Of a stretch of 64,000 nt of DNA, positions 1,143 to 28,129 are shown in pieces. The notes beneath the pieces are model-generated. The model saw only the letters and a list, made by a program, of their open reading frames with translations, was not told the origin of the DNA and ran no database searches. How positions within the stretch are numbered: the first letter of the stretch is position 1; every line of letters begins with the position of its first letter. The translations under genes and the position numbers were made by a program. The DNA comes from Alloacidobacterium dinghuense (GTDB taxonomy: Bacteria > Acidobacteriota > Terriglobia > Terriglobales > Acidobacteriaceae), in the NCBI RefSeq assembly GCF_014274465.1, contig NZ_CP060394.1, positions 4,154,001 to 4,218,000 of the forward strand, in the 5' to 3' direction.

Positions 1143-2915
1143 ATGGCGAAAATGTTTCCAGCTGAGATCTTCAGTGGCTGCCCCAGTCCAGGGGAACGCG
1201 AGGTATTTGCGCGACTCAAAGATAGTTCCAATACACCAGATTGGATCGTCCTGCATTCTCTGGATATTGCCCACCACGTCCGGCGAGTGAGCGGTGAAGC
1301 AGACTTCGTCGTGATCATTCCAACTAGAGGCGTTCTTTGTCTGGAGGTTAAAGCCTATCGGCGTATACATCGAAACGAAGCCGGTTGGCTTTATGGCTCT
1401 GAGCAAATCCCAGATTCCCGCGGCCCCTTTCGCCAAGCGTCGGAAGCCATGCACAGTATACGGAACCGCCTAATTAGAAAAAGACCAGACTTGGCTCACA
1501 TCCTGTTCTGGTCGGCGGTTGTCCTTCCGTACATCGATTTCAAGATTCCATCCAACGAGTGGCACGACTGGCAGGTCATTGATGCCGCGCACTTCAGGCA
1601 GCGCCCTCTTCCAGAAAGCATAGAAAACGTTCTCAAGAATGCCCGTGAATTTTTGTCGACTTGCGAGAGTGCCCGATGGTTCAATGCAGGTCTACCTACT
1701 CTCACACCTAAGCAGGCCAAAGCGATTGCGCAGGAACTGCGTCCGAGCTTCGAGATTTTCGAAAGTACTAAAGTTCGCCGAGACCGCTGGGATAAAGAAG
1801 TACGTCGCTACACAGAGGAGCAGTTCGCCTCGCTCGACGCGATGCAGGCCAACTCGCGCGTGCTGTTTACCGGCCCCGCCGGGACTGGCAAAACACTGCT
1901 GGCAATTGAATCAGCACGCCGAGCACATTCCGGAGGAGAACGGTGTCTCTTCGTCTGTTTCAACCGTCTCCTTGGGCGCTGGCTTCAGGAGGAGATGGCC
2001 CCTCTGGGGGAGACTATGACCACATCCACGTTCCACAGTTTTCTCCTATCGCTTGCGGGCTGCGTTCCTCAGGGTGAAGGCGTCAGCACATCGTTCTGGG
2101 AGGAGGAGCTTCCAGAGAGGGCAATCGAGGCGCTAGTCGAACGTGATCCTCAATTCACGCCCTTCGATACTCTCATTATCGACGAGGCGCAGGATCTTCT
2201 TCGAGCCAATTACCTGGACGTTCTCGACCTGCTCCTTCGAGGAGGGCTCGCATCGGGCCGATGGCGCCTCTTTGGCGATCTGGAGAAACAGGCCATATAT
2301 TCAGGCAGCATTCCTAACCCTGTTGCGCTTCTGCAGCAACGAACAGGCAGCGTTCCCTTGTTCTCGCTCAGAGTCAACTGTCGCAATTCGCCGCGAATCT
2401 CCACTTTGGTGCACCTCCTCGGAGGCCTCGCACCAAATTACAGCCGCGTACTGCGGCCGGACAACGGGATCGAACCGGAATTGAAATACTACGGGTCGTC
2501 GGCTGAACAAGAAGCCATTTTCCTCCAGGTTTTGGAGTCTTGGTACGGAGAAGGGTTCGGTGGAGGTGAAATCGTCGTATTGTCGCCGCGTGCAGACCGG
2601 ACCAGCCTTGCTGCACACGTAGCGAAGGAACCCTGGCGCAGCCGCCTCCGCCCATGCGCTGAGTCGACGGGAGGACAAATTTCTTATGCTTCAATCCATG
2701 CTTTCAAAGGACTAGAGGCCTCGGCGGTTGTCGTTACGGACATTGAACATCTGACTGGCGACGCAGCGGTGGATTTGTTCTATGTTGCTGTAACGCGCGC
2801 GTTGCACCGACTGACGATTCTAGTTCACGAGTCCGCGCGCCCCGACATCATCCGTGCGTTGACGGGACAAGGCGCTGTTCCGAACCTTAACTCATCCGGA
2901 GAGCCATCATGGTAA
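1143..2915 (+). CDS. NERD nuclease-like domain fused to UvrD/Rep-type superfamily 1 helicase
   Basis: The N-terminus (residues ~10-130) is a NERD domain with the nuclease-like pattern E52-x-D54 ... E68-V-K70. A helicase follows: Walker A GPAGTGKT at 244-251, CFNRLLGRWL after it, Walker B DEAQD at 347-351, VNCRNSPRI, IHAFKGLEASAVVV, and FYVAVTRA at the end (UvrD motif VI). It should be an ATP-driven DNA translocase that may also cut DNA. The gene overlaps the next start by 7 nt, so the two are translated as one operon. NERD-helicase fusions are often found in defence loci; here it probably works with DrmA/DrmB. Confidence 0.88.
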   Translation: MAKMFPAEIFSGCPSPGEREVFARLKDSSNTPDWIVLHSLDIAHHVRRVSGEADFVVIIPTRGVLCLEVKAYRRIHRNEAGWLYGSEQIPDSRGPFRQASEAMHSIRNRLIRKRPDLAHILFWSAVVLPYIDFKIPSNEWHDWQVIDAAHFRQRPLPESIENVLKNAREFLSTCESARWFNAGLPTLTPKQAKAIAQELRPSFEIFESTKVRRDRWDKEVRRYTEEQFASLDAMQANSRVLFTGPAGTGKTLLAIESARRAHSGGERCLFVCFNRLLGRWLQEEMAPLGETMTTSTFHSFLLSLAGCVPQGEGVSTSFWEEELPERAIEALVERDPQFTPFDTLIIDEAQDLLRANYLDVLDLLLRGGLASGRWRLFGDLEKQAIYSGSIPNPVALLQQRTGSVPLFSLRVNCRNSPRISTLVHLLGGLAPNYSRVLRPDNGIEPELKYYGSSAEQEAIFLQVLESWYGEGFGGGEIVVLSPRADRTSLAAHVAKEPWRSRLRPCAESTGGQISYASIHAFKGLEASAVVVTDIEHLTGDAAVDLFYVAVTRALHRLTILVHESARPDIIRALTGQGAVPNLNSSGEPSW

Positions 2916-5900
2916 ATCACATCGCGGACCGCGCACTCCTGCTAGATTCGCTCCGCCGCGAACTCGTCGGTCCTGATCCTCGCGGTGAAGAACTCGACTG
3001 CACGCAGCCCGTTTCGTTTGCGGCCTTAGATAAATCATATGGCCCGTGGCGTCAGAAAGAAAACGGCGAAGAGGTTCTCCAACGTGACCCTCCAACGAAA
3101 CGCTACGGCATCGGCGTCTTGTACCCGGCACAGACTCTCGATCAAGATGATTCTGGTGTTGATGCCTTGCTGACGCAGCCAGCTGTGGTTCTTCCCGACG
3201 CTTTGGACCCTCCACAAGACGATCCCCTTACAGCGCAGGCCCGAAGAGACCTTGAGGATATTCAACATCGCACTGAAAGATCCTCAGCGGAACCAGAAAC
3301 GGAGGACTTGGACCTGTCGTCCGCGAACTCTTACCGCCCAAGCAGCGTCGCAGTCAGCTTTCTTGCTTCGGTTCCAAAAGGCGCACAGCTAATCGTCGAG
3401 GCTACAGGAGGCCGCTATCAGCGCTTTCCCGTTACGATCGAAGAAAAGGAACGGACGTGGTGGCTTAGGTCTCCAGTCAGGCTGCGCGCACAATTCAATC
3501 GCGACGACCTCCTCTCCATTCAGAAGAAGCTCATTCAACCGACTGATGTCGAAAGCACTAATCTGAGTGATCTCGACATTCGAATCGAAGTATATGGCAG
3601 GCCCTCCTCGATCTCAGATGCCCGGCTATTCACCGTTTGTCTCGTCAACCGCTCGTCGGCTTCGTCGATTGATGAGCGTAGTCTCTTCCAATTCCACTTC
3701 AAGGCGCATTTCGAATCCACTGGAAAACAGGCCGAGATTCTTCCTTACCCTGCGGTCGAATTGGAAAAACCTGATGATGAGGAGCAGTCCCTCGCGTTGC
3801 TGTACAGAGAAACCGAAACCTTTGCGATTGGGCATGGGTGTGCCGCTGACTGGTCTATCAACGCAACACGGACTAGTGCACTCGCAATCACAGGCGAGTG
3901 CTTGCCCACGTTTGAAACACCCAGCGTCACACCTGATATCCGCCGCCAGGACGGCAGCGCGATTGATGTCTCCATGGCCGCGCTTGCTGGCCTAATCCAA
4001 GGCGACGACGGACTCGATGCCCTTGAGGATGTAGTGGCCGCCTATGAGCAATGGATAGATGAAAGGGAAAAGGGGATTTCTCTTCTGGACATTAAGCACA
4101 GAACTCCAGCTGAACGCCACATGAGGGAATGCGCCCGCTGCGCAGATCGCATGCGCGATGGCATAGACTTTCTCAATTCCGATCCGCGCGCCATGAGAGC
4201 CTTTAGGCTCGCAAATGAGGCGATTCTGTTGCAGCAGCTGCATAGCCGCCGCGAATCGCGTCGGCTAGTTTATGACACAAAGGGAAAGCGGCTGACGTTT
4301 TCTGATCCGTACGTTGCACAGGACACGCGCATTGAAACGGCTGGCCGCGGAAAGTGGCGCGCCTTTCAGATTGCATTCCTCCTCATGACGCTCCGATCCA
4401 CGGCGGACGGCAGAGCATCTGACCGCAGCACGGTTGAACTCATTTGGTTTCCCACCGGCGGAGGGAAGACGGAGGCTTATCTCGCGCTTTCAGCTTTTTC
4501 GATTCTAATGCGCCGGCTCCGCAATCCGGCTGACGCGGGGGTCGAGGTGATCATGCGCTACACGCTTCGCCTTTTGACGGCCCAGCAATTTCAGCGCGCT
4601 GCGGGTCTACTATGTGCTCTGGAGTACCTCCGGCGGCAACCGACAAACGAGAAAGATCTCGGCCAAGTTCGATTCTCAATCGGCATCTGGTTGGGCGGAA
4701 GTTCTACTCCAAATTCACGGCAGCAGGCTCGCAGTGCACTGACGGCCCTCAGCCAGGCTCAGCCTTATGCAGAGAATCCGTTCATCATCACCAAGTGTCC
4801 CTGGTGTGCGGCTGAAATGGGACCCGTGGAACTGGAGGGGAAAATACCTTCTGCCATCCCTAAGGTGCACGGTTATGAAAGGCAGGGCGATACTGTCGTA
4901 TTTAAGTGCTCAGATCGCACATGTGATTTCTCGTCGGGGCTTCCAATCGTCGTCATCGACGAGGATATTTACGACATGTGCCCTACCCTGATTATCGGCA
5001 CAGTGGACAAATTCGCAATGCTTGCGTGGCGGCCCGAGGCTAGAGCGATCTTCGGTCTTGGTTCGAATGGAACACGGAAATCGTCACCGCCAGGACTAAT
5101 AATCCAAGACGAGCTCCATTTAATCTCTGGCCCGCTTGGCTCAATGGTGGGCCTCTACGAAGCCCTGATTGAAGAGCTCTGTACAGACCGCCGCAACGGT
5201 TCTGTCCCTCCCAAGATCGTGAGTTCAACTGCCACAATTAGGAGGTATGCGAGCCAGGTTAGGGATCTTTACGGCCGCGAGACGGTCGCTCTGTTTCCGC
5301 CTCCTGGCCTTAGCGCATCAGATTCTTTTTTCGCGCAGCACGCGCGGCGACCTGATGGCTCTCTCGCTCCCGGCCGGATTTACGTCGGTGTTCACGCTCC
5401 TGGCCTCGGGTCTCTCCAGACCGCTCAAGTTCGAGCATTTACTGGCTTGCTTCAAGCACCGCTGGCTCTGCCCGACGCGGCAAGAGATCCATGGTGGACT
5501 ATCCTCGCCTTCTTCAACAGTCTGCGCGAATTGGGCACGACCCTATCCCTTCTGCAGTCCGATATTCCGGACTACCTGAAAGTCATTCGAAACCGGACTG
5601 GCGCGGCACCGGACCTGATTCGGCGTCTCCGTAATGTGAAGGAGCTTACGGGTAGACTTCCTAGCGAAGAGATCCCCCTTGCAATCTCAACGCTTGAAGC
5701 GGAATACGGAGGCCAGCGGACACCTGTTGATATCTGTCTGGCTTCGAACATCATTGAGGTAGGTGTGGACATAGATCGTCTTTCGCTCATGGCCGTCGTG
5801 GGGCAGCCAAAAACCACATCTCAGTACATTCAGGTCACAGGGCGCGTGGGGCGACGCTGGTGGGAGCGTCCTGGGGTGGTAGTGACAATATATGTTGCAT

Positions 5901-6403
5901 CAAAGCCCCGTGACCGCTCCCATTTCGAGAAATTCCGAAGTTACCACGAGAGGCTGTACGCCCAAGTAGAACCGACGAGCGTAACGCCGTATTCGCGCCC
6001 GGCGTTGGAGCGAGCGCTGCACGCCGTCATGGTTGCCTATGTGCGGCAGTTCGGCACGGAGGCGGCAGGACGTAGCCCCTATCCGATACCCCAGGGGGAG
6101 CTAGCTGCACTTCGTGACCTGCTTGTGCCACGTGTGACTCAAATTGACCCCGACGAGAGGGCGAGCTTCGAACGACTGTATGACGCAAGAACAGATGAGT
6201 GGCGCCGATGGGAGCGCAACCGGTATAGCGGAGCTCCGTCAGACGAAGAGATTCCGCTTCTGCGGCCAGCCGGAGGATATGCAAGTCCCGAGCACGTTCG
6301 AATTTCCTGGCCCACTCCCCAATCGATGCGGGCCGTCGATGCTGAATGCCAGGTCGAGATCACAACTCTCTATTTGAACGACCGGGGAGCCGACAATGCC
6401 TAA
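2909..6403 (+). CDS. drmA: DISARM helicase DrmA
   Basis: This 1164-aa protein is a superfamily 2 helicase with a long N-terminal extension. Motifs: FPTGGGKTEAY (Walker A, Lys520), a CxxC...CxxxxC zinc-like cluster near 630-670, DELH at 734-737, SSTATIRRY, ASNIIEVGVDIDRL and QVTGRVGRRWW near 975-983. Length, motif set and the overlapping downstream DUF1998 protein fit DrmA, one of the core DISARM proteins that blocks incoming phage DNA. It overlaps its neighbours by 7 and 8 nt. The family call is strong because the DrmA-DrmB pair is intact; whether the system works without a methylase in view is open. Confidence 0.85.
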   Translation: MVNHIADRALLLDSLRRELVGPDPRGEELDCTQPVSFAALDKSYGPWRQKENGEEVLQRDPPTKRYGIGVLYPAQTLDQDDSGVDALLTQPAVVLPDALDPPQDDPLTAQARRDLEDIQHRTERSSAEPETEDLDLSSANSYRPSSVAVSFLASVPKGAQLIVEATGGRYQRFPVTIEEKERTWWLRSPVRLRAQFNRDDLLSIQKKLIQPTDVESTNLSDLDIRIEVYGRPSSISDARLFTVCLVNRSSASSIDERSLFQFHFKAHFESTGKQAEILPYPAVELEKPDDEEQSLALLYRETETFAIGHGCAADWSINATRTSALAITGECLPTFETPSVTPDIRRQDGSAIDVSMAALAGLIQGDDGLDALEDVVAAYEQWIDEREKGISLLDIKHRTPAERHMRECARCADRMRDGIDFLNSDPRAMRAFRLANEAILLQQLHSRRESRRLVYDTKGKRLTFSDPYVAQDTRIETAGRGKWRAFQIAFLLMTLRSTADGRASDRSTVELIWFPTGGGKTEAYLALSAFSILMRRLRNPADAGVEVIMRYTLRLLTAQQFQRAAGLLCALEYLRRQPTNEKDLGQVRFSIGIWLGGSSTPNSRQQARSALTALSQAQPYAENPFIITKCPWCAAEMGPVELEGKIPSAIPKVHGYERQGDTVVFKCSDRTCDFSSGLPIVVIDEDIYDMCPTLIIGTVDKFAMLAWRPEARAIFGLGSNGTRKSSPPGLIIQDELHLISGPLGSMVGLYEALIEELCTDRRNGSVPPKIVSSTATIRRYASQVRDLYGRETVALFPPPGLSASDSFFAQHARRPDGSLAPGRIYVGVHAPGLGSLQTAQVRAFTGLLQAPLALPDAARDPWWTILAFFNSLRELGTTLSLLQSDIPDYLKVIRNRTGAAPDLIRRLRNVKELTGRLPSEEIPLAISTLEAEYGGQRTPVDICLASNIIEVGVDIDRLSLMAVVGQPKTTSQYIQVTGRVGRRWWERPGVVVTIYVASKPRDRSHFEKFRSYHERLYAQVEPTSVTPYSRPALERALHAVMVAYVRQFGTEAAGRSPYPIPQGELAALRDLLVPRVTQIDPDERASFERLYDARTDEWRRWERNRYSGAPSDEEIPLLRPAGGYASPEHVRISWPTPQSMRAVDAECQVEITTLYLNDRGADNA

Positions 6404-8309
6404 AGGTCCGATCCGAAGGGCCCAACTTGTGGCACCGTTTGGTGTTGGAGCACTTTCTGTCGTAAGAGACGGCACCTCGGTTATTACTTGTGGCGTTGAC
6501 CACTGGTATGAAAGAGAGCAGAGGGACGAGAGCGGCCAAACCATCGACGTTAATGAGTTTCGAATTGAAGAGTGGCGTCTTCAGAGAAGACTCGGTGTTG
6601 ACCACTTCAGACTCCCTCCAGACTTCCGTGTACGGCGCCAGAGTGATAAGGCTCCTAACTTTTACTTAACGGTCCCCTTTCTGAGATTTCCCAAATGGCA
6701 TTTTTGTCCATCGTGTAATCTTCTCGTCACACTGCCGCTTACGGTCAGGACGCGCGAACGCTGCCCAGCATGCCTTGAATCTCGAAAAAAGCGAATCGTT
6801 CTATTGCAGGTTCCGTTTGTTGCCATGTGCGACCAGGGACACCTTCAAGACTTCCCGTGGCGTGAATGGGTCCACAAGACCGCGAGTCCATCCTGTCACA
6901 AGAGTCTGAAACTGGTGGCTACCGGCGGAGCATCTCTGTCAGCTCAAAAAGTGGAATGTGAGTGTGGCGCTCACCGTACACTCGCGCAGATCACGACAGC
7001 CGCACAGTCGGGGGAGACCACCTTTCTAAGCAGCAACCTCGATGACAGCGGCACTCTGTACCTCTGCCGCGGATTGAAACCGTGGCTCGGACTTGAAGAT
7101 GTCGAGCAGTGTCCTCGACCTCTTCGCGGCTCTCTCCGCAGTGCGTCGAACCTATATTTTGCTGACGTTCAGACCGCGCTATATTTGCCCCGCAGCAGCG
7201 CAAATGCACCATCCGACCTCGTCGATCGGCTGCAGGAACCACCACTATCAACGCTCATCAGTTTGTTGAAGGGTGCCGTCAAGACCATAAAGCCTGACAT
7301 GCTCAGAAACCAACACTCCATCGTTCTGCGGAAGTATACCGATGAACAGATCGCCGGGGCCATCGGAATTGTCACTGGCGCTGGGCAGCAAGATGCTGAG
7401 GCTGATGTTGGGTTGCCTGGTGACGACAGCGAAATGGCATTCCGAAGAGCAGAATACCGCGCATTGCGGATAGCACGTGACGAAGATCAGCTCCTGATCC
7501 GGGCTCCAGAAATGAGCAAATATGACACGGAAGTTGCCGGCGCCTTCGAACGGATAATGCTTATTCACAAACTTCGAGAAACTCGCGCACTAACGGGCTT
7601 CACTCGAGTATTTCCAACTGCTGCTGCCACCCTCGAGGAAAAAGTGCGGTTACTTCGGCGCGATTCCCCCTTAGAACCATGGTTGCCGGCCTACCTAGTC
7701 TATGGAGAAGGAATTTTCTTTGAGTTTCACGAAGCTCTGATCGACCAATGGGAACAGCGCCCTGAGATCGGGGAACGAATACGTCGCCTCGATGCCAGCT
7801 ATCGAATCCTGCAGGGAAATCGACGCCAGCCCTTTGAACCGATCGTCCCGCGATTTGTGCTCCTCCATACTATTGCTCATCTGTTGATGAACCGCCTCAC
7901 GTTCGAGTGTGGGTACAGTTCCGCGGCACTTCGAGAGCGGTTGTTCGTTTCGCCAAACCGGAAGGCTCCTATGGCTGGCATTCTGATCTATACGGCTGCG
8001 GGTGATGCAGAAGGTACCATGGGCGGCCTAGTTCGGATGGGTCAGCCCGGCTACCTTGAACCGATGATCCGGCGTGCCCTAGAAGCTGCATCGTGGTGTT
8101 CCGCCGATCCGGTTTGCTTGGAAATGGGCCGACGGGGGGGACAGGGTCCAGATTCCTGCAATCTCGCTGCTTGCCATGGCTGTGCCTTAGTTCCGGAAAC
8201 CGCTTGCGAACGATTCAATCGGTTCCTTGATCGGGCCTGTGTGGTCGGGGATATCGAAAGCCCCGGATTGGGCTTCTTCCCGGGTGGGCGCATCGGTGAG
8301 AATTCCTAA
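6396..8309 (+). CDS. drmB: DISARM protein DrmB (DUF1998)
   Basis: The 637-aa product has a zinc-ribbon near residues 105-128 (CPSCNLL ... CPACLES) and a C-terminal DUF1998 domain: HTIAHLLMNRLTFECGYSSAALRER, then GILIYTA.GDAEGTMGGL and a Cys cluster (CSADPVCLEM...CNLAACHGCALVPETACERFNR). DrmB forms a complex with DrmA in known DISARM systems and binds DNA. The ATG lies inside the end of drmA (8-nt overlap), so co-translation is expected. It is the last gene of the + strand operon; no drmC or methylase follows. Confidence 0.85.
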   Translation: MPKGPIRRAQLVAPFGVGALSVVRDGTSVITCGVDHWYEREQRDESGQTIDVNEFRIEEWRLQRRLGVDHFRLPPDFRVRRQSDKAPNFYLTVPFLRFPKWHFCPSCNLLVTLPLTVRTRERCPACLESRKKRIVLLQVPFVAMCDQGHLQDFPWREWVHKTASPSCHKSLKLVATGGASLSAQKVECECGAHRTLAQITTAAQSGETTFLSSNLDDSGTLYLCRGLKPWLGLEDVEQCPRPLRGSLRSASNLYFADVQTALYLPRSSANAPSDLVDRLQEPPLSTLISLLKGAVKTIKPDMLRNQHSIVLRKYTDEQIAGAIGIVTGAGQQDAEADVGLPGDDSEMAFRRAEYRALRIARDEDQLLIRAPEMSKYDTEVAGAFERIMLIHKLRETRALTGFTRVFPTAAATLEEKVRLLRRDSPLEPWLPAYLVYGEGIFFEFHEALIDQWEQRPEIGERIRRLDASYRILQGNRRQPFEPIVPRFVLLHTIAHLLMNRLTFECGYSSAALRERLFVSPNRKAPMAGILIYTAAGDAEGTMGGLVRMGQPGYLEPMIRRALEAASWCSADPVCLEMGRRGGQGPDSCNLAACHGCALVPETACERFNRFLDRACVVGDIESPGLGFFPGGRIGENS

Positions 8310-12111: not shown

Positions 12112-12123
12112 GAATTCTGAGAA

Positions 12124-17152: not shown

Positions 17153-18700
17153 GTGAATAGTCACTTTCCGATCGTTTACGTGCGGGGTTATGCAGGAACT
17201 CAGTCCGACGTCGAGGAGACAGTCGATGACCCCACATACGGCTTCAACACTGGTTCCACACACATCCGCCAGATGATGAACGGGAAAGCTGACATGTTTA
17301 TGTTCGTCAGTCCATTTGCTCGGTTGTTTCGCGACCACGGCTATCAGGATGTGATCGACGGCACAGTCCAACAACTGCCACCGAATCCAAAGGCCCCAGA
17401 GCGGACCATCTGGATTTATCGCTACTATGACCCGACATCGCAAACGTTTGATCGTCCCGGAGGCACACGCCTCACGATCGAACAGGCGGCGGACGGACTC
17501 CGCGATTTCATCAATACAGTTCGCAGCTCAATACAGCTTGCGCAGGCTAAAGCCCTAGGCACCGATCTAGCTTCCGTGCCTCTAACCAAGGTGTACCTTG
17601 TGGCTCACTCGATGGGAGGACTTGTTTGCCGCTGCTTGTTGCAGAAGATCTATCCCAAGGGAGAAGCCTCGAACTATGTTGATAAGTTATTCACCTATGG
17701 TACTCCTCATGGTGGCATTCATTTCGATATTAGTGGCGGACGCCTCCTGGAGAAGCTTCGCGATCTGGTCGGCTATCACGGCTCCGACAATTTTGGGCCC
17801 GAAAAAATGTACGAGTTCCTCACGCCTAATCCAATGAAAACGGTCCCGGACAATTTCGATCCGCGCGAGATGCCATCCGACAGTTTCGATACCAAGCGTG
17901 TGTTCTGCGTAATTGGTACCAACGCCGGTGACTATGCTGTTGCCGCAGGCCTCTCACGATCGGCCGTTGGTCCTCAGAGCGACGGTTTGGTGCAGTTGGA
18001 GAGTGCCTATGTGCACGGCGCTCACCGAGCATATATTCACCGTAGTCACAGTGGCCGGTTCGGCATGGTCAATTCGGAAGAAGGATATCAAAACCTACAG
18101 AGGTTCTTTTTCGGGAATGTGCAGGTTCGCATGTCCCTGGTCAAATTTGTCCTGGATTACTCCGAAAACGATAACCCTGATACTCCAGATCTCTCGTACT
18201 TTGTAGAAACTCAAGTATCCGTCCGAGGTCTAGCTATCCTCATGCACGAGCGTACCATTCAGCACTACTGTGCTGATGCGATCGACCAAGATATTTATCG
18301 CAAGCGCTATGACAAACCTGATAACGAATTGCCCCTGTTTACTAGCTTTTTGCTTAACAAGCGCGACGATCGCACTATGCGATATATGATCAGGATTGCC
18401 TTATATGGGCAGCAGTATGAAAAAGGCTTTTTAGTGTTTGGCGATCACATCGAGCGACTTCCTCTGTGGTCAGACTCTCTGGTTGTCCAACTGGAGCAGG
18501 TGGGCGAAGAAGAGAGCACGATTTACCGTACGAAGTACTCGTGGGCGTCAGAGAGCCTTGAGCCAAGCATCCCAATGACGCCTACTCTTATGTCGGATGA
18601 CGAGAGCTTCTATGTACAGGCCCCGCTGCCCGGTCCCAAAGCACCGGATCTCTTTGGGACAAACGCGGCGGTCCAATTCGTCACAACGAACTGGAGATGA
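17153..18700 (+). CDS. alpha/beta-hydrolase, PGAP1/lipase-like
   Basis: The start is the GTG preceded by GGGAGGG eight bases upstream; a longer frame from TTG at 17090 lacks such a site. The 515-aa product opens with FPIVYVRGYAG and carries the nucleophile elbow VAHSMGGLVCR, FTYGTPHGG, a likely acid in QSDGLV and a likely His in HRSHSGRFG, so the Ser-Asp-His triad seems complete. The C-terminal ~200 residues are beta-rich and unassigned. No signal peptide is seen, so it would act in the cytoplasm or on the inner leaflet. It is followed after 3 nt by a membrane-protein gene, a tight operon. A membrane-damaging effector is one possibility. Confidence 0.8.
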   Translation: MNSHFPIVYVRGYAGTQSDVEETVDDPTYGFNTGSTHIRQMMNGKADMFMFVSPFARLFRDHGYQDVIDGTVQQLPPNPKAPERTIWIYRYYDPTSQTFDRPGGTRLTIEQAADGLRDFINTVRSSIQLAQAKALGTDLASVPLTKVYLVAHSMGGLVCRCLLQKIYPKGEASNYVDKLFTYGTPHGGIHFDISGGRLLEKLRDLVGYHGSDNFGPEKMYEFLTPNPMKTVPDNFDPREMPSDSFDTKRVFCVIGTNAGDYAVAAGLSRSAVGPQSDGLVQLESAYVHGAHRAYIHRSHSGRFGMVNSEEGYQNLQRFFFGNVQVRMSLVKFVLDYSENDNPDTPDLSYFVETQVSVRGLAILMHERTIQHYCADAIDQDIYRKRYDKPDNELPLFTSFLLNKRDDRTMRYMIRIALYGQQYEKGFLVFGDHIERLPLWSDSLVVQLEQVGEEESTIYRTKYSWASESLEPSIPMTPTLMSDDESFYVQAPLPGPKAPDLFGTNAAVQFVTTNWR

Positions 18701-18703
18701 ATT

Positions 18704-19474
18704 GTGCTTAACCTGGTGACCGGGTTTGTTCGCACTGAACTTGGAAAACACGCGACCATCGCCGCGGTCCTGATCGTTGCGAGCTTCGTGACTTCTTCAA
18801 TCGCCTACTGGCATGCCAGCCATTTGGCGAGAGAATGGGTGTCTCCCCTTCGGCCGCATTATGGTCTACGTGAGCCAGGCAAAGCCGGTTTCTGCAAGCC
18901 ACCAGGACAGGTTGCAGGAGCAGTGACTCTTCGGCTAGAGGATGACGTGCAGGAAGTTCAAGGACGGATTCAGCACCACTTGAATGTAATGATCTACTTT
19001 TATGCAAACTACTATCGCGCCATCATTATGAGCTCCATCCTTGGAGCGGTGTCAGGTATTTGCTTGTTTTACATCGCAAACAAAGGATGGGCGACAGCGA
19101 GCAACTACGTCGTAACCACTTTCGTGATTTCAACTGTTATCGGGGCATATTTCTTCTCTCTTATTGCAGTGTTTAAGGAGCAGGACAATATCACAGCAAA
19201 TAAGGCGTTATACCTGCAATATGTGGCACTTGGCAACCGGATTGCGAGCTACTGTGCGACAGGCAGCACCGAGAATGCGCAGCCTGAGACATTGGACAGT
19301 TATGTGCATCAGGTCGATACACAGATGGCTGCTATCAACGATGTAGCGATTTCTCTAGACTCGGGTAAGGTCGCCGACTATAAAGCCCTTCTGCAACAAG
19401 AAATGAACTCAAAACAGAAGCTCGCACTACCGCCAGTCGAAGGAGCTGAGAACACAACGACAAAACCGCGCTAA
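18704..19474 (+). CDS. membrane protein coupled to the lipase
   Basis: A GTG start with GGAGA upstream, 3 nt after the lipase stop, gives 256 aa. Hydrophobic segments lie at ~18-38, ~100-125 and ~135-158; between the first two is a ~60-residue loop with Cys and Pro. The C-terminal ~90 residues are soluble and helical. No family is recognised. The tight spacing means it is made together with the lipase and may anchor, gate or inhibit it. This is inference. Confidence 0.7.
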   Translation: MLNLVTGFVRTELGKHATIAAVLIVASFVTSSIAYWHASHLAREWVSPLRPHYGLREPGKAGFCKPPGQVAGAVTLRLEDDVQEVQGRIQHHLNVMIYFYANYYRAIIMSSILGAVSGICLFYIANKGWATASNYVVTTFVISTVIGAYFFSLIAVFKEQDNITANKALYLQYVALGNRIASYCATGSTENAQPETLDSYVHQVDTQMAAINDVAISLDSGKVADYKALLQQEMNSKQKLALPPVEGAENTTTKPR

Positions 19475-19478
19475 GAAG

Positions 19479-19518
19479 GCTAGCTGTTCCGAAATCATGC
19501 TAGCTGTTCCGAAATCAT
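19479..19518 (+). repeat. 20-nt tandem duplication
   Basis: Two adjacent identical 20-nt units (GCTAGCTGTTCCGAAATCAT) just after the stop of the preceding gene. The duplication extends an open frame upstream of the next gene, but that gene's likely start lies after it. Confidence 0.9.
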
Positions 19519-19574
19519 CTTGCGTTCGTTTAGCGCCGCTCTACGTTATCCTTCTCCACGAGGTGATCAGGCGA

Positions 19575-20120
19575 ATGAGCGTCTCGTATACGGGTGTTCT
19601 CGATGTAATTAAGGATTTCGGGCCCATTGTCACTGCAGTCGGAGTCTTCGTGGCGGTTTGGACCCTCCGAGCAAACCATGATTGGAACAGACGTCAGTAC
19701 ACAGCGATCCTCGTGGCGGGCTGGAATGAGAAGACTTCTATCCATCGCAAAGCGATAGAGAGGCTTCGACCTGGTCTCATCGATCTCGACAGTAAAGGTA
19801 CACCTACGGAGCTTACGAGGGCCGATGCGGCAGCAATCTATACGGCCAAACCAGACACTCCCGAGTGGGAGCTTCGCTTCCATTTTGTCGAATTCCTGAA
19901 TCACCTCGAGGCGATTGCCTCGGCGTATCGAAACAAAGTGGCAGATGAGCAGATGTTAGAAGAATCATTTCGGAGTGTACTAATCCGGGTCCACGACATT
20001 CTTGTCAATTTCATAGCGACCGTCGATCAGCACCGAGGTTATGAAGCGTGGGAACCTTACTCAGCCGTAGTCGCGTACTGGAAGAGAAAACCATTTAAGC
20101 CACGCCGCTATACCGCCTAA
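19575..20120 (+). CDS. membrane-anchored protein of unknown function (DUF4760-like)
   Basis: The ATG with AGGTG nine bases upstream gives 181 aa: a single N-terminal membrane segment (IVTAVGVFVAVWTL) followed by RANHDWNRRQY and a helical cytoplasmic domain with WELRFHFVEFLNHLEAIASAY. One-TM proteins with this NHDWNRR-like junction and FLNHLE motif belong to a family found often next to defence and membrane-stress genes (I recall DUF4760); function unknown. It ends the lipase cluster. Confidence 0.65.
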   Translation: MSVSYTGVLDVIKDFGPIVTAVGVFVAVWTLRANHDWNRRQYTAILVAGWNEKTSIHRKAIERLRPGLIDLDSKGTPTELTRADAAAIYTAKPDTPEWELRFHFVEFLNHLEAIASAYRNKVADEQMLEESFRSVLIRVHDILVNFIATVDQHRGYEAWEPYSAVVAYWKRKPFKPRRYTA

Positions 20121-20343
20121 AATAGTAGGCGAGAGAAGACCCTCTTCAGCCAATCCGATAAATCCTATAAGCCTAGTTAGCCTGAAGCTACTGGCGTTCA
20201 CGACGCTGTCGTGCCTGGTGAAGGACGGCTTTATCGATATCTAGTGTGGGCAGGAAGGGACTACGCGGGACGGTGGAGCTGGGTGGTCGCGTTTTTTGCG
20301 GTTTTGGCGACTGTATACGACTCTCGGCACGTTCGGTCTTCCA

Positions 20344-20359
20344 CTGCAATCAATTGCAA
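20344..20359 (-). repeat. dispersed palindrome copy 4
   Basis: CTGCAATCAATTGCAA, 15 of 16, with centre CA, i.e. the reverse orientation. Confidence 0.85.
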
Positions 20360-20642
20360 AATAGGAACGGCCTAATGATCGGCTCATAGGGACAAACCCT
20401 GGAGTTGATCGGAGAGTTGAGCCTCTATATGAATTTTCGGCATTGCGGTCGCCAGTTTCTACATAGTTACAATCGTTGAGAAGCTACTCAGAACTCTCGG
20501 CTTTTGCCGCATGCCCTAGGCGGTGGATGCTGGTAGATTCCCCAGACTTTCTACATTGAGACACATATTCCGCGCTGACATCCTCACTCTTTCTCGAAGC
20601 ACGTAGATTCTGATCTTTCTCGGAAGGCCTCTCGGTCCGTGA

Positions 20643-20658
20643 ATGCAATTGATTGCAA
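20643..20658 (+). repeat. dispersed palindrome copy 5
   Basis: ATGCAATTGATTGCAA, 15 of 16. Confidence 0.85.
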
Positions 20659-20737
20659 TTGAGACCTTACGCTGCCATCCACAAGGTATCCTTCCGATGT
20701 TCCGGCCGCATTGTGGGGCAAGGGAGCTTCCGTCGGA

Positions 20738-20753
20738 TTGCAATTGATTGCAA
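20738..20753 (+). repeat. dispersed palindrome copy 6, perfect
   Basis: TTGCAATTGATTGCAA, 79 nt after the previous copy. Confidence 0.9.
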
Positions 20754-20851
20754 ACGGTCCGACGTCCCGTCTGAATCTAGGAGCAAGGGTGGGCACAAAT
20801 CCGAACATCTAGCCCCTAAATTCCGATTAGTGCGTGGCCGAATGCATATGA

Positions 20852-21739
20852 TCAACGCGCGGCGTGGTTCACCGGAAGTTCTTGTAGGCTCTGGATGTCG
20901 TTGAGGATGGCCTTCACAGTTGCCTCTGTGAGGATGCGTCCTTTCTCTCTCGTCGCCAGCGTCGGGTCACCCCATGCTCCCGTTGGCGAGTAGGTTTTGT
21001 CGGTTGCGTTCGGGTCTCGTGTGAGCCCTCCTCGATGGTGCGGATGCAGGTCTCTCTCAGCCTTTGACATCCTCACAGTGTCAGGAGCGATGTAGAGCAT
21101 CATGGAAGTTTCGATTTCGTCGGCGTGAGTGCCCTCTGGCTCCTGTTGCACTTTCTTAACTACGTCATCGATCTCGTCGAGATCGAGATACGTCATGGTT
21201 ATGCCTTCAGAACCGAGCGTCTTGGCCGCCTCGGAAAGCGGCTTGATGGTTGAAATTCCCGTGTTGATGACGTAGAAGCGCCGCGGGCCATGTAATGCAA
21301 GCGTGCGACAGATTTCCACGACCATATCGCGTGCTGTATTCGACTCGAGAGATGTCGAGCCAGGATATTCCAGGAATGCAGGGTAATAGCTGTAGTTGAT
21401 GGTCGGTGCAATCACCACAGGAGTCGCGGCCAGCACTCGTTTCTTCAAATACTCCGCCATCACCCAGTCATTGTTGAGCTGTAAATGCCGCCCATGTTCT
21501 TTCGATTCCGCGCCCAATGGTATGACTACTACCCGATCCGGCGTCAATATCGGCTCCGCTTCGTCCCATGAGAGATTCTCCAACAAAATGCCGCGATTGC
21601 TATTTTGTGTTTTGGTAGCTGGGGACTTTTGCGCAGAACATTGCATTGTAAACAGCCCAACGGAGAGGAGAATCAACAAGCACCTGAACGCGGAACATGG
21701 TGATGACGCTCTTGTTTTACTTTCTTCTGCAGCCTTCAC
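20852..21739 (-). CDS. exported creatininase-family amidohydrolase
   Basis: The GTG with GAGGG nine bases upstream was chosen; the frame is open further out, but that part runs through a dispersed palindrome and looks non-coding. The 295-aa product starts with a signal sequence (hydrophobic CLLILLSVGLFTM, then QCSAQ). The creatininase fold is shown by IPLGAESKEHGRHL..NND (metal ligands Glu, His, Asp) and GTHADEIETSMM. These are binuclear Zn/Mn amidohydrolases acting on creatinine-like or formamide substrates. Export is known for members in this type of bacterium. Its place between palindromes in a defence island is odd; no pathway partner is nearby. Confidence 0.8.
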   Translation of the reverse strand: MKAAEESKTRASSPCSAFRCLLILLSVGLFTMQCSAQKSPATKTQNSNRGILLENLSWDEAEPILTPDRVVVIPLGAESKEHGRHLQLNNDWVMAEYLKKRVLAATPVVIAPTINYSYYPAFLEYPGSTSLESNTARDMVVEICRTLALHGPRRFYVINTGISTIKPLSEAAKTLGSEGITMTYLDLDEIDDVVKKVQQEPEGTHADEIETSMMLYIAPDTVRMSKAERDLHPHHRGGLTRDPNATDKTYSPTGAWGDPTLATREKGRILTEATVKAILNDIQSLQELPVNHAAR

Positions 21740-21805
21740 AAGTATTACCCTCGCTTTCCCGCGTCCTTTGGGTGGAGCGCGTTGAAGGAAATTGAGCCCC
21801 CAGAA

Positions 21806-21821
21806 TTGCAATTGATTGCAA
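21806..21821 (+). repeat. dispersed palindrome copy 7, perfect
   Basis: TTGCAATTGATTGCAA, 67 nt upstream of the creatininase-family start. Confidence 0.9.
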
Positions 21822-22124
21822 TATGTCTGTGTAGCGTGAGGGAGAGGTCTCCCTCGCCGGGTCGCCTGACAACTGATATTTCGCCACAAAGAACCTAAGA
21901 TCAACACTTTTCTGTTCGCAGTATCGGAATCGCGTACCGAGGTCGTGAGCCAGATTCCGGGGATTCTCAAGCTACAGCAATGGTCCAATCGGCCGGTCTG
22001 GGAGGTGCGCCGGATCGTCACGTCGGTTCTTCAGCTGTGTACTGGATATATTCATCGACTTCAGTACAGGCATCGCTGAGCAGCTTTTCCACCTCGGCGG
22101 ACGGCTATTCTTTAATGAGGCGTT

Positions 22125-22379
22125 ATGAATTGGATGTCGAACCTGCTGAGCCTGGTGTTTGGTTGCCGTCATAAGCAAGACCGCCTGTCGCGTCCGTTCA
22201 CCCATGGCAATCAGACCTACAAAGTCTGTCTCGATTGCGGCAGACACGTACCATACGATGCTGTGCTGTTCCGTCCGCTGACACGCAGCGAGATCATCTG
22301 CCATACGGCGATGTGTTCATCACCTCCGAGAAATACGCCTCAAGGAAGAGCGTCTAGGAAATCCATAATGTCGCGATAG
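22125..22379 (+). CDS. small zinc-ribbon protein
   Basis: An ATG with TGAGGC upstream gives 84 aa: a short hydrophobic N-terminus (MNWMSNLLSLVFG) followed by CRHKQDRLSRPFTHGNQTY, then KVCLDCGRHVPYD. The CxH...CxxC layout with SRPFT..G.TY.VCLDCG is one I associate with small proteins common in Acidobacteria. The C-terminal ~25 residues look random and run 40 nt into the 3' end of the convergent RT gene, so the gene may be truncated there. Function unknown. Confidence 0.6.
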   Translation: MNWMSNLLSLVFGCRHKQDRLSRPFTHGNQTYKVCLDCGRHVPYDAVLFRPLTRSEIICHTAMCSSPPRNTPQGRASRKSIMSR

Positions 22380-24451
22380 ACGCCGGTCAGGTCGATCTTG
22401 ATGCTGTCGCGCTCTCTGACTTTGAGGGGTTTCGTCTTCTGACCAGTTTTGAATTCAAATGGGTGACTTTCGGGTATGCTGTTTCGCCTGTCGTTCGTCG
22501 ATCGCAGGGCCGCCGCCATCGCTGGGAAGTGCTGTGCGAACGGTGCAGCCGCTTCCAACATCACGCCGAACGATATCCACTTGCCGGTTTTTCCCTTGCG
22601 TGGCATGGCACCAGGCAAGCCTTCGGTATTCAGGACATCCTGAAATGCCCCGAAGACGGCATCGTTGAAGGAGTTCTGCAAGGCGAGCCAGCCCGAGCGA
22701 TCCGAGTCGAACTTGTTCTCCGCGGTCAGCAAAAGCTGGAGGGCGTGCTGATAATTCGATCCGAGGAGCGCCTTCCAGCCGCGCCAAGGTCGCAGCTTAT
22801 AGGACGTACGGAGGATATCGCCGATCTGATCGAAGTGTGGTTTGAACCCAACGCTGATTAGCCCCAGGCCTTGAAAAACGTTCTTGACCTCCAATGAAAG
22901 GCGATAGGTAGCTATGCCCATCTGCTTCGGTGACAGTCCTCGATCGACAATTTCCTCCGCCAGAGTCATGCCCGGCGCCGGCATGGGCCTCTGGCAAAGC
23001 TCAGCTGCGATGCCGCCCTTCAAATAATCCTCGTTCGATAGATATGGGACCAGCAGGGACTGGATATATGGGCTCTTGGACCGCACACGCTTGAGTGCCT
23101 GGAAGCTGGAATACAGCCCGGCGTTCCGGCACGCTAGGAAGAAAACGCATATCGCCCGCTGCATCGAGAATGAGAGACTACCGCGCTTTGCTTGAGCGAT
23201 CGCTACTGGCAGCAGAACCTGCAGCTCGTTGGGCCTGGCCTGGCGCGATGCTATCAGCCAAAGTTCTCCTTGGACGTAGTCGTGCAGCACACCCTTCTTC
23301 AGCATGGATGTGACGTGACGGACTATAAGCCGCGATTTCGGGTAGTTCTGAAAGAACGCTGCGAATGCGTCGATGTGCTCGGGATGCGTCGGCAGGAGCT
23401 TCAGGACCTTGTTCAAGATGGTGCGCGATGGGCCACTCCGGTAAAGCACAAATCGAAGCCGGCTCTTGTCGATCACGCGCAGCGGGCGGCCTCCGATCGC
23501 ATCGCCGAATATTTCAACCGCCGCGTCCTCGACCATGTCAGTTTCGTCGGGGTCACGGCCCGTCGACTCCGCAATACTCGGTAGTGTGCCCAAAGCTTCC
23601 GTGACGTCTTTGGCAAAGGACACCTTGAACTTTGACCCCTGCGGGATCAGGCTCCAACGCCGGCATTCCATTTCCAGGACAACGGCAGCGTGCCGAACCT
23701 CATCCTCTGTCTTCGCCAGAACGCGGATATCGTCGACGTAGCGAATGTAAGGGATGCCGGCCTTGTCCATCGCTTCATCCACCGGCAAGAGGAAAATATC
23801 CGCGAGGAAATCTGAAGCTATGGGCCCTTGGGGTATGCCGTGATCGACTGGGATACCCTTGGTATCAGAGGTCCAGACGCTGAGGCATTTCCGAATCATC
23901 TCCCAGGCTTCGTTACTACCTCCGGACGGTGAAACGACGTTCTGCAGTGCCCTGTGGGAAATCGTTTCGTAGAAGGCAGCCAGATCGAAGTGTGCAATCC
24001 AGTGATTGCCGCGGACCAAATGCGTTGCCAGCCGCAACTTGAAATCGTGATAGGTCCGTCGCCAGTCCTGCAGGAAGAAAATTGAGTCTGGCTTCGAATT
24101 CAAACACGAGCTGAAGACCAGCCTGTTCTCAACGGCTCGCCGGCGCTTAAACATCTGCTTCGCCACTTGGTTAGCGATAGTTTGAAGGACGATTTGATCG
24201 TCCAGCGCGAGCAATGTCAGTGGGCGAAGTAGCCCGGACGCTTTTGGCAGGTACATGCGAATGGGGCTCGTCGGCTTCCATCCGCCCTTGAGCTTTTCGT
24301 GCAGCAGTTGAAGGTTCGCCTTTCGCCCAGGCTCGTATGCGCGGTAGAGGTGGCGAAACATTCGCTTGTGCTGGAGGTTCATGGCCGTGGTGATGCGCGA
24401 CCAGGCAAGGTCGAGGTTACCAAACGAGATGAGCGAAGCCTTGCTGATCAT
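22340..24451 (-). CDS. reverse transcriptase of the defence/unknown-group type
   Basis: The 703-aa product carries the RT core in residues ~60-290: RMYLPKASG.LRPLTLLALDDQIVLQ (fingers), IAHFDLAAFYETI with Asp156 (motif A), GIPQGPIASDF at 205-215 (motif B), YIRYVDD with catalytic Asp pair at 240-241 (motif C). The remaining ~400 residues are helical with no maturase or endonuclease domain, so it is not a group II intron ORF, and it is far longer than retron RTs. This fits the UG/Abi-like RTs with a helical C-terminus, many of which stop phage by protein-primed or untemplated DNA synthesis. GGAGG lies ~10 nt before the ATG. Confidence 0.85.
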   Translation of the reverse strand: MISKASLISFGNLDLAWSRITTAMNLQHKRMFRHLYRAYEPGRKANLQLLHEKLKGGWKPTSPIRMYLPKASGLLRPLTLLALDDQIVLQTIANQVAKQMFKRRRAVENRLVFSSCLNSKPDSIFFLQDWRRTYHDFKLRLATHLVRGNHWIAHFDLAAFYETISHRALQNVVSPSGGSNEAWEMIRKCLSVWTSDTKGIPVDHGIPQGPIASDFLADIFLLPVDEAMDKAGIPYIRYVDDIRVLAKTEDEVRHAAVVLEMECRRWSLIPQGSKFKVSFAKDVTEALGTLPSIAESTGRDPDETDMVEDAAVEIFGDAIGGRPLRVIDKSRLRFVLYRSGPSRTILNKVLKLLPTHPEHIDAFAAFFQNYPKSRLIVRHVTSMLKKGVLHDYVQGELWLIASRQARPNELQVLLPVAIAQAKRGSLSFSMQRAICVFFLACRNAGLYSSFQALKRVRSKSPYIQSLLVPYLSNEDYLKGGIAAELCQRPMPAPGMTLAEEIVDRGLSPKQMGIATYRLSLEVKNVFQGLGLISVGFKPHFDQIGDILRTSYKLRPWRGWKALLGSNYQHALQLLLTAENKFDSDRSGWLALQNSFNDAVFGAFQDVLNTEGLPGAMPRKGKTGKWISFGVMLEAAAPFAQHFPAMAAALRSTNDRRNSIPESHPFEFKTGQKTKPLKVRERDSIKIDLTGVYRDIMDFLDALP

Positions 24452-24636
24452 GCAAGCGCCTCCTCCGGCGAAGCTGAAATTGTAATGCGGTCGTCAATCG
24501 AACTGCGAGCGCATCGCTAACTGTCGCGAGGGAGGTCAGAGGTGCCACCCGGAAATCCCTTCGATCAGGCCTCCTGCTTCCTTTTTGAACGCGCCCTGCG
24601 TGTTCGACAGAACGGTTTCACGATCCAAATAGTTTT

Positions 24637-24652
24637 GTGCAATTGATTGCAA
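24637..24652 (+). repeat. dispersed palindrome copy 8
   Basis: GTGCAATTGATTGCAA, 15 of 16, upstream of the RT start. Confidence 0.85.
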
Positions 24653-24691
24653 TTTGATCCCGTCGCCGCCTGCGGATCGATAGCCCTGAAC

Positions 24692-24707
24692 CTGCAATTG
24701 ATTGCTG
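24692..24707 (+). repeat. dispersed palindrome copy 9, degenerate
   Basis: CTGCAATTGATTGCTG, 13 of 16, 39 nt after the previous copy. Confidence 0.7.
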
Positions 24708-24926
24708 CAGGTGCTGCCCGCAGATTGAGCAGACTTCGGCGAAACGGTACCTTCGTAACTCGTCGGCGCAGGGCGGTGGCTTGTATTCTTGGCAGACAAG
24801 ATCACTCGCCTTTAAGTCCAAAACGCCGCTGGCGGTAACTTCTACGCCACAGTGCAATGCATTAAGCTGTTCTTCATCGGCAGGAAGATAGGCGATTTCT
24901 TAGGCAATTATGGGGCGGAAGACAAG

Positions 24927-25388
24927 ATGAAAAGCAAGCAGGTGACGAGTAAGTTCTCGGGTTTTGTGCTGAAGGGGGCGTCAGCACAGTGCTATGACGC
25001 CGTCTTGAAACTCAGAACCGCTGAGCGCGAGGCCGACGAAGATCGTAAGGAAGGCGTCAAACGGAAGCGTGCCGAGCTAAAGACCGCCGCCGATGTTAAG
25101 GCGGCGGACGAGTACGAGATACCGGCCGAACGCAAGATCGCCGCGGCGAAATACAGGGCTGAAGCTAGAGAAAGAGCCAAAAAATACGAATGGGAACTGC
25201 AACGTAAGGCGAGCGACGCTTCTAGAAAGCTATATAGCAAGAGTCTGGCCGCCGCTGAACGTAAGGTCAACGAGCTATTGCTTGAGGCGACGGACACGCA
25301 AATTGAGCCAAATGGGCATCTTGAGGTGTATCTCAGAGAGTTGCGAATTACCTTATCGCAGCGATTGCGTCAGATCGGCGTGTATTGA
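24927..25388 (+). CDS. charged coiled-coil protein of unknown function
   Basis: From the ATG with CGGAAG upstream (a GTG at 24852 would add 25 residues) the product is 153 aa, extremely rich in Lys, Glu, Ala and Arg. Residues ~25-125 form a near-continuous charged helix (heptads such as RTAEREADEDRKEGVKRKR). No catalytic motif. It could be a structural or nucleic-acid-binding partner of the divergent RT, or an unrelated phage-type scaffold-like protein. Confidence 0.6.
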   Translation: MKSKQVTSKFSGFVLKGASAQCYDAVLKLRTAEREADEDRKEGVKRKRAELKTAADVKAADEYEIPAERKIAAAKYRAEARERAKKYEWELQRKASDASRKLYSKSLAAAERKVNELLLEATDTQIEPNGHLEVYLRELRITLSQRLRQIGVY

Positions 25389-25451
25389 CCACAGGGGACT
25401 GGCGTTTCAAGATTTAACTGGGCTATTCTTCTCCACTCTCTCTTGGTCCCA

Positions 25452-25467
25452 GTGCAATCAATAGCAG
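25452..25467 (-). repeat. dispersed palindrome, degenerate copy
   Basis: GTGCAATCAATAGCAG, 13 of 16, reverse orientation. Confidence 0.65.
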
Positions 25468-25548
25468 GACGCGGCCGCACAAAATCTTCAACTGATATGT
25501 GTGTTGCTTCGCAATTGGTGAAAAAGAGTGTTCTTGATTGCGCGCGCC

Positions 25549-25564
25549 CTGCAATTGATTGGAG
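25549..25564 (+). repeat. dispersed palindrome, degenerate copy
   Basis: CTGCAATTGATTGGAG, 13 of 16. Confidence 0.65.
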
Positions 25565-25683
25565 TTAAAACCACCCATCCGGATGCGCCCAGATGAGACA
25601 CTGATACCCTCGTGTCCGTCGGTCGCTTCGCTTTCGCGAAGTGCTGGTGAGTGTTCAGGCTCGCTTGTGTAGCCGTCTCCAAA

Positions 25684-25699
25684 TTGCAATCAATTGCAA
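25684..25699 (-). repeat. dispersed palindrome, perfect, reverse
   Basis: TTGCAATCAATTGCAA, the reverse complement of the forward form. Confidence 0.9.
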
Positions 25700-25850
25700 C
25701 GCAGCGATGACTGGTCTATCGATCTGAGCCACGGTAGCACGATTTAGGCTTCTCGACTGTTGACACCTTATTTACTTGTTTCGACGCAGAACCTTCTGTC
25801 CTGCCCCAGGACTCTGGGATTGCAAGCAGAACTCGAAGCAATTCCAAGAA

Positions 25851-25866
25851 TTGCAATCGATTGCAC
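25851..25866 (+). repeat. dispersed palindrome with CG centre
   Basis: TTGCAATCGATTGCAC; with centre CG the site is fully self-complementary except for its last base. It lies 27 nt past the stop of the next gene. Confidence 0.85.
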
Positions 25867-25892
25867 TGGCATTCCTCCGAACTGGGATCGAA

Positions 25893-26255
25893 CTAGGCGT
25901 ACATGTCCTTCCCGTATAAGACCTTCATCGCACATTCGATCTCGTCCAAGGTTATGAGCTTTTTGTCAGTCATCAAGCTGACTGCTACAAAACAATGTGC
26001 GAGCAAAAATCCGATATGAGGGGTGTCAGGACAGGTTGCCAGTCCGTTCCAACATTTGGCTCGTGTCGTGAATTCACACCAGTGACTGACCGCATAAGAA
26101 ACTACTGGCTCTGTATACATCCCCAGCTTTCGATAAAGCTGCTTTAACTGCCCCGCCTGTTTAGGGGTTAATGGTGCGGAATCAGCTTTCAGCGCTGTAG
26201 CTACTTGATACTGCCAATGAAATGCAAGCTTCGATGATTTAGTCGATGGTGGCAT
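25893..26255 (-). CDS. small helical protein of unknown function
   Basis: The internal ATG (MPPSTKSSKLAFHWQYQ) gives 120 aa; the frame extends upstream but with little protein-like content. The product is helical (LTPKQAGQLKQLYRKLGMYTEPVVSYAV, then FLLAHCFVAVSLM) with scattered Cys. No family recognised. The next gene on this strand, 250 nt upstream, is the HUH-type protein, so it may belong to the same small element. Confidence 0.5.
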   Translation of the reverse strand: MPPSTKSSKLAFHWQYQVATALKADSAPLTPKQAGQLKQLYRKLGMYTEPVVSYAVSHWCEFTTRAKCWNGLATCPDTPHIGFLLAHCFVAVSLMTDKKLITLDEIECAMKVLYGKDMYA

Positions 26256-26313
26256 TCTTTTGGACCCTTTCTCCGCTGAGCATATGCAGATCGGATTCTG
26301 CTGCTCAGAAAAA

Positions 26314-26423
26314 CCTGCGGCTCGACCTGCTCGCCGCCAAATCAATCAGCGCCTCCACTTCGTTCGGCGCCAAAGCAGGCTTCTTTTCTTTTTAAGAACC
26401 CGCGGCTCGGCCTTGCTCGCCGC
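26314..26423 (+). repeat. imperfect 25-nt direct repeat pair
   Basis: Two GC-rich units at 26314-26338 and 26399-26423 (core GCGGCTCG..C.TGCTCGCCGC) differ at about three positions. They lie between the helical-protein gene and the HUH gene and could be part of a replication or nick site, but there is no direct sign of that. Confidence 0.5.
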
Positions 26424-26502
26424 AAAGGCATCGCTCGCGTTCTCTAGCCTAGGCTCGCTCGCAATATTCGCTACTCAAATCGGATTCCCACTGATTCCTG
26501 AC

Positions 26503-27090
26503 CTACGGTCGTAGATGGCATTGTGGAGGCCCCGTATTCCCAAATTGTTTTTGTCGAGTACGATGCCGACTTAGGTGGCGTCTCTCTCTCTTATTGAGCA
26601 GTACAGCTTCTGGATGAAATAGATGAAGTTTCCGCAATGCCAACCCTCCGTCAGGGTGATTCATCATCTTCAGGATGTATGAAGCGCCATTCCGAGTGCT
26701 ATCGTATGGTTTGGCCGATGCGCCAGACCCATTGGCTCTCTTGCCAGCCATTCTTGTCCAAATGGATTCCACAAAGAGCGGACGCAGTGGTGCGGCACTG
26801 GTCAAGAGGGCATGAAAGTGACGACCGGATGCTGGTTTGCCACATCCAGAAAGACGTTTTTCATCACCGCGCACGTAGACTATATCGCTCCGATAGAATT
26901 TCTCGAGTTGATTTATATACTCTGCGAAGACTTTCTCGGCTTGCTGGTCGGATACACGCGATGCAAAGGTGAATGTGCAGAACAGTTGCCACGGTATCGT
27001 TCTAATCCACGTTGCATATTCTTCTACGATCTGCCGGTCTACCGCGTACGGCCAACGCTCACGCTCATACCAGCGGGCTAAGTTTTGCAT
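26503..27090 (-). CDS. HUH-endonuclease-like replication/transposition protein
   Basis: The start is the ATG nine bases after TAGGAG; an ATG three codons earlier abuts that site. In the ~195-aa product I see FCTFTFASRVS (motif I-like strand), GRHFHALL (the His-x-His metal motif II) and ASYILKMMN (Tyr with a Lys three places on, motif III-like). This is the pattern of rolling-circle Rep and related HUH nucleases, which nick DNA and stay bound through the Tyr. No helicase domain. A palindrome lies 40 nt upstream of the start. It could replicate a small phage/plasmid or move short palindromic repeats. Confidence 0.65.
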   Translation of the reverse strand: MQNLARWYERERWPYAVDRQIVEEYATWIRTIPWQLFCTFTFASRVSDQQAEKVFAEYINQLEKFYRSDIVYVRGDEKRLSGCGKPASGRHFHALLTSAAPLRPLFVESIWTRMAGKRANGSGASAKPYDSTRNGASYILKMMNHPDGGLALRKLHLFHPEAVLLNKRERRHLSRHRTRQKQFGNTGPPQCHLRP

Positions 27091-27130
27091 GGTTCTCATC
27101 TCCTAATCGAATTCGTTTTTATGGTGTTTC

Positions 27131-27146
27131 CTGCAATTGGTTGCAA
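27131..27146 (+). repeat. dispersed palindrome, last copy
   Basis: CTGCAATTGGTTGCAA, 14 of 16, directly upstream of the HUH gene. No further copies are seen to the right. Confidence 0.8.
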
Positions 27147-28021: not shown

Positions 28022-28067
28022 CCTCATAACCCAAAGGTCGCTGGTTCAAATCCAGCCCCCGCAACCA
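28022..28067 (+). repeat. 46-bp tRNA-fMet-derived attachment repeat, left copy
   Basis: The repeat contains CTCATAA (anticodon CAT and loop), the 3' side of the anticodon stem, a complete T-arm around GGTTCAAATCC and the acceptor strand CCCCGCA-A-CCA. CAT anticodon plus an acceptor ending CCCCGCAACCA fits initiator tRNA. The left half of the tRNA is absent, so this is an attachment site, not a gene. The identical copy lies 9,003 nt to the right. Confidence 0.92.
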
Positions 28068-28129
28068 ATCAACTCATCTCATCTCAATCACATACAAGAT
28101 CAGAAAAGTGACTGGCCGCGGACCTCCGG

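Follow-up and report, generated by a model that had tools for sequence, protein, structure and literature searches.

The reverse transcriptase (RT) gene at 22340..24451 on the minus strand of the window, a 64,000-nucleotide stretch of the genome of the soil acidobacterium Alloacidobacterium dinghuense, encodes a 703-residue protein that its profile match places in subgroup UG19 of the UG/Abi family of defence RTs, and so adds a further member to a known but uncharacterised group. The protein appears to follow the plan of AbiA, that is an RT, a helical repeat region and a HEPN-like C-terminal domain, and on that analogy I lean towards reading it as a single-gene defence system whose RT would make protein-primed, untemplated DNA.

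The open reading frame is intact, with 703 codons and zero internal stops, and GGAGGAGG precedes its ATG start. Its fingers-palm region (residues ~1-290; 23582..24451, minus strand) carries a Pfam RVT_1 match over residues 69-287 (E=1.2e-15) and the group's invariant FDLxAxY and RYVDD motifs. The full set of catalytic residues reported by a first-pass annotation of this DNA is indeed present: D156 (codon 23984-23986, minus strand) lies in FDLAAFY and D240-D241 (codons 23729-23734, minus strand) in RYVDD, and both D156 and YVDD are kept in all 10 full-length UG19 proteins aligned. Against the closest relative, a 79% identical protein from an Acidobacteriales MAG (L004), and with dS close to saturation, dN/dS is ~0.04 for the RT (0.035), 0.08 for the helical region and 0.14 for the C-terminus. 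Such values indicate strong purifying selection and hence a gene that is kept for its protein. Beyond the RT, AF2 predicts helices, in agreement with the ~400 further helical residues that had been noted by eye. The first part of this extension (residues ~305-540; 22832..23539, minus strand) is a candidate HEAT-like or alphaRep repeat region, which Foldseek matched weakly to HEAT/ARM solenoids (E of at least 0.04). Residues 310-420 are helical and mostly at pLDDT 72-87 in the whole-protein AF2 model, which was run on a shallow, three-sequence alignment and whose RT half (pLDDT<50) is unusable.

The assignment to UG19 comes from the PADLOC profile RT_UG19 (PDLC03756), itself an RT with a long helical C-terminus, which matches residues 5-698 at 523.9 bits (E=1.7e-157). 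The runner-up is UG21 (179.2 bits, E=3e-53), the nearest profiles outside UG19 are UG21, UG32 and UG20, and the AbiK profile also matches the RT core (E=8.6e-11). The UG/Abi class, proposed earlier from the sequence alone, is thereby upheld, and the subgroup, which could not be told by eye, now has a name. In an RT-domain tree all 11 UG19 rows fall on one side of a branch (support 95/94, 98% of bootstraps), although this only rules out placement inside the sampled outgroups, because these are mostly group II-type RTs, with one DRT4-type RT, on long branches. The NCBIfam group II maturase model (85.9 bits, cut-off 300) and the retron St85 model (32.7 bits, cut-off 235) both score far below threshold, and Rfam matches neither a group II intron RNA nor a retron msr-msd RNA. 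I rejected both a group II intron enzyme and a retron enzyme on these scores and the Rfam result; the one outcome that the first-pass annotation had named as telling against it did not occur.

UG19 relatives are found in 8 of 300 family genomes (E<=1e-30, the query genome counted) and in a few others elsewhere in the same phylum. All of those found belong to this phylum, other phyla having been covered by a single pattern-based scan. Phage and plasmid records contain no full-length relative, their RT matches being partial and low in identity, and the viral contigs searched contain none. Divergent members, L043-L045, are 22-27% identical; L043 and L044 match the UG19 profile over their full length and L045 is close to L043. 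The query's own genome also encodes a DRT4/DRT6-type RT and another RT (L003:1087-2718, L002:1126-2328).

What, then, is the C-terminal domain? By eye it had been described as free of any maturase or nuclease domain, and no maturase/X or Pfam nuclease domain is in fact detected, but the last ~160 residues are probably HEPN-like. When this domain (residues ~541-703; 22343..22831, minus strand) is modelled alone by AF2 from three sequences, it is predicted to form four long helices (558-579, 585-609, 643-657 and 678-701; pLDDT 85.8, pTM 0.82), a layout repeated in the full model. Foldseek comparison of the domain with the PDB returned 49 matches, 7 of them HEPN-type and with ranks 2-4 all HEPN, at E-values that are all at least 2 (best HEPN E=2.5). 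Among these matches are 1ufb, 5hy3 and HepS, which I take to be HEPN proteins. The motif R656-N-S-I-P-E-S-H663 (22463..22486, minus strand) has the form Rx6H and fits the HEPN Rx4-6H motif; in the AF2 models R656 closes the third long helix and H663 lies in the loop to the fourth, which is where the HEPN rule puts the motif, at the end of helix 3 or in the loop to helix 4 (PMC3710099). The surrounding C-terminal stretch, RRNSIPESHPFE, holds R656, H663 and P664. R656-x6-H663 occurs in 11/11 UG19 C-termini and across two UG19 clades that are ~22% identical overall; over the last ~180 residues the clades share ~17% identity and nine invariant columns, R656, H663 and P664 among them. Furthermore, the motif agrees at 6 of 8 positions with RNSNPVSH, the HEPN motif of L. 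lactis AbiA (PMC11077055).

HMM and Pfam profiles detected no HEPN domain in the UG19 C-terminus, HEPN_AbiA_CTD (PF18732) matches nothing in the query genome, and sequence searches of the PDB with the C-terminus returned no HEPN or AbiA chain. Foldseek against viral proteins gave nothing useful. A match of the motif region to an E. coli plasmid (H56) lies on the strand opposite to the annotated gene and was set aside as chance. Since the motif and the predicted topology fit, but no profile matches and the Foldseek E-value is never below 2, I rate a HEPN fold as probable. Such a domain is absent from Pfam and from the description of the RT_UG19 profile, from which the present protein differs in this respect; the comparison covered these two sources. 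If the tail is a HEPN domain, an uncharacterised UG group gains a domain reading, the RT-helical-HEPN plan is not unique to AbiA, and the two activities of UG19 could be probed by simple mutations (R656A/H663A versus D240A-D241A).

The likeness to AbiA of Lactococcus (PDB 8OZ7) covers the order of the three parts, RYVDD and an RNxxPxSH motif. However, the AbiA model TIGR04499 gives the window's RT 18.9 bits against a cut-off of 250, HEPN_AbiA_CTD does not match it, and the helical part spans ~170 residues in AbiA versus ~235 here. AbiK, Abi-P2 and DRT4, of class 1 of the UG/Abi RTs, have a similar RT core and a helical repeat domain to which the candidate repeat region here may correspond, but AbiK and Abi-P2 are without a HEPN domain, unlike the predicted UG19 tail (PMC11077055). 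The C-terminal domain may be an active HEPN RNase effector, with DNA synthesis by the RT sensing or regulating infection and unleashing RNA cleavage and growth arrest, a reading that I regard as possible but doubtful. R656, H663 and D597, an acidic and nearly invariant residue of helix 2 in UG19 proteins, are kept despite the low identity between clades, and in the first clade the motif R is followed by N, as in active HEPN nucleases (PMC3710099). In the second clade, however, that position is Leu rather than the usual polar residue, and L. lactis AbiA, with nearly the same motif, has a dispensable HEPN motif and no observed RNase activity, its R581A/H588A mutant retaining intact defence (PMC11077055). 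That UG19 is a second, distantly related RT-HEPN lineage with an active HEPN domain, coupling untemplated DNA synthesis to RNA cleavage in one polypeptide, I consider unlikely; if true, it would set UG19 apart from L. lactis AbiA, whose HEPN domain is inert.

Does the enzyme work with a partner? The first-pass annotation had suggested two candidates, an RNA encoded in the 475-nt upstream gap (24452..24926, minus strand) and the product of a divergent coiled-coil ORF (24927..25388, plus strand; start at ATG 24927 for 153 aa or at GTG 24852 for 178 aa). Both the gap and the ORF are present as described, but neither partner is supported. Aligned with the L004 locus, the DNA is 75% identical between the stop codon and a point 33 nt upstream of the ATG (24484), beyond which the DNA is unalignable on both sides, and no conserved flank was found in other pairs of UG19 loci except the near-copies L005/L023. 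Folding of the gap does not exceed that of shuffled sequence (z=0.59), and Rfam has no match to it. Because the flanks are not conserved and neither excess folding nor an Rfam match was seen, an RNA partner in the gap finds no support. These tests for an RNA in cis give negative evidence, made with no known ncRNA-dependent DRT as a positive control, and since synonymous sites are near saturation the flank comparison excludes a well-conserved RNA and not a fast-evolving one. Neither 120 family genomes nor the neighbourhoods of other UG19 genes yielded a relative of the coiled-coil ORF, so that this ORF is not supported as a protein partner either, and near-copies apart, no gene recurs next to the UG19 RT across the examined loci.

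The same evidence bears on a class-2-like RT whose RNA template is encoded farther off or in an unconserved form. DRT2, DRT9 and DRT10, of class 2, share the RT core and need an ncRNA in cis, and near saturation against L004 would leave a weakly constrained RNA invisible. However, none was detected at the UG19 locus, conservation ends with the gene on both sides, and in the L041 locus there is no room for an upstream RNA because only 16 nt separate drmMI from the start of the RT. I therefore hold a class-2-like enzyme to be improbable.

By analogy, the UG19 RT most likely resembles AbiA, as a class-1-like DNA polymerase that is protein-primed and self-sufficient. The class 1 RTs studied to date make protein-primed, untemplated DNA (PMC13174585, PMC13275509); in AbiA this activity belongs to a HEPN-mediated dimer (PMC11077055). 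A literature search found no described function for UG19, UG21, UG32 or UG20, and because the nearest profiles are thus also without one, the mechanism is carried over from AbiA and AbiK. I infer a HEPN fold, protein priming, untemplated synthesis, an antiphage effect and, perhaps, RNase activity. The UG19 RT would work without an RNA template and oligomerise through its helical and HEPN-like domains. DNA synthesis would be primed on a hydroxyl of the RT itself, and the product would be a single-stranded DNA, covalently attached to the enzyme, by which phage propagation would be blocked. Assembly would require the HEPN-like domain, which may also cut RNA upon infection. Five Tyr residues are invariant in 10 full-length UG19 proteins (Tyr36, Tyr134, Tyr161, Tyr235 and Tyr238). 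Because Tyr161 and Tyr238 lie within the catalytic motifs, and because AbiK primes from an N-terminal Tyr at a similar position (PMC11077055), I infer that Tyr36 (24344..24346, minus strand) is the best candidate for the priming residue. Both this residue and the form of the oligomer are guesses, since the RT half of the AF2 model cannot be used.

The UG19 RT sits on a mobile element together with other phage-defence genes. Perfect 46-47 bp copies of a tRNA-Met 3' end occur at genome C1:4141567-4141613 (the tRNA-Met itself; L050:7535-7611) and at window positions 28022-28069 and 37025-37070, and bound two tandem tRNA-Met-integrated elements, one of 40.4 kb (window -12.4 to 28.07 kb) and one of 9 kb. 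The copy at 28022..28069 (plus strand; 47 bp identical to C1:4141567-4141613) is the right att repeat of the 40.4-kb element, which encodes an integrase, a STAND/AAA-type ATPase, a C5 cytosine methyltransferase, a NERD-helicase, DrmA, DrmB and the UG19 RT. The NERD-helicase, DrmA and DrmB genes form a DISARM-like set at 1143..8309 on the plus strand (PADLOC DrmA 1.5e-208, DrmB 7.2e-76; NERD 5.8e-13), with the 5mC methyltransferase a few kb upstream (L050:16854-17990); the NERD-helicase also matches PADLOC RTasNERD-Hel (2.8e-26), and a PLD protein encoded at 14243-16168 matches DrmC weakly. Near the right end of the element, 26503-27099 has a weak, below-cut-off match to REP_ORF2-G2P, a rolling-circle-type replication protein.

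Elsewhere, UG19 genes neighbour a DISARM operon (L041), a CBASS cyclase with a 2TM effector (L040), a type IIG RM with PDC-M68 (L004) and a restriction helicase (L037). These defence neighbours, together with dN/dS of 0.04-0.14, argue against a domesticated or decaying RT that merely rides on a mobile element with no role in defence, although one UG19 gene (L039) sits among housekeeping-type genes and the RT in the DISARM operon (L041:9406-10830 and L042:7791-8504) is apparently split by an IS21-type insertion; I consider such an RT very improbable. Two further UG19 loci, L005 and L036, have flanks that are ~99% identical though their genomes are classified in two different genera. This points to a recent transfer of the island, unless there is an issue with assembly or classification. 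An AlbA-like ORF adjoining the UG19 gene is broken in L036.

Finally, the palindrome TGCAATYRATTGCA has 12 exact copies in the 6.27-Mb genome, all within the 40.4-kb element (window 8593-27145, genome C1:4143909-4179865) and apparently intergenic; with up to 2 mismatches, the window holds 15 copies versus 0.96 expected. Four clustered copies lie at C13:73.6-91.3 kb of a genome from another genus (G416), a region that has only an HTH_17 gene, a 150-aa ORF and the integrase in common with the element. As the palindrome and these few genes are shared, TGCAATYRATTGCA may be a binding site for an element-encoded protein.
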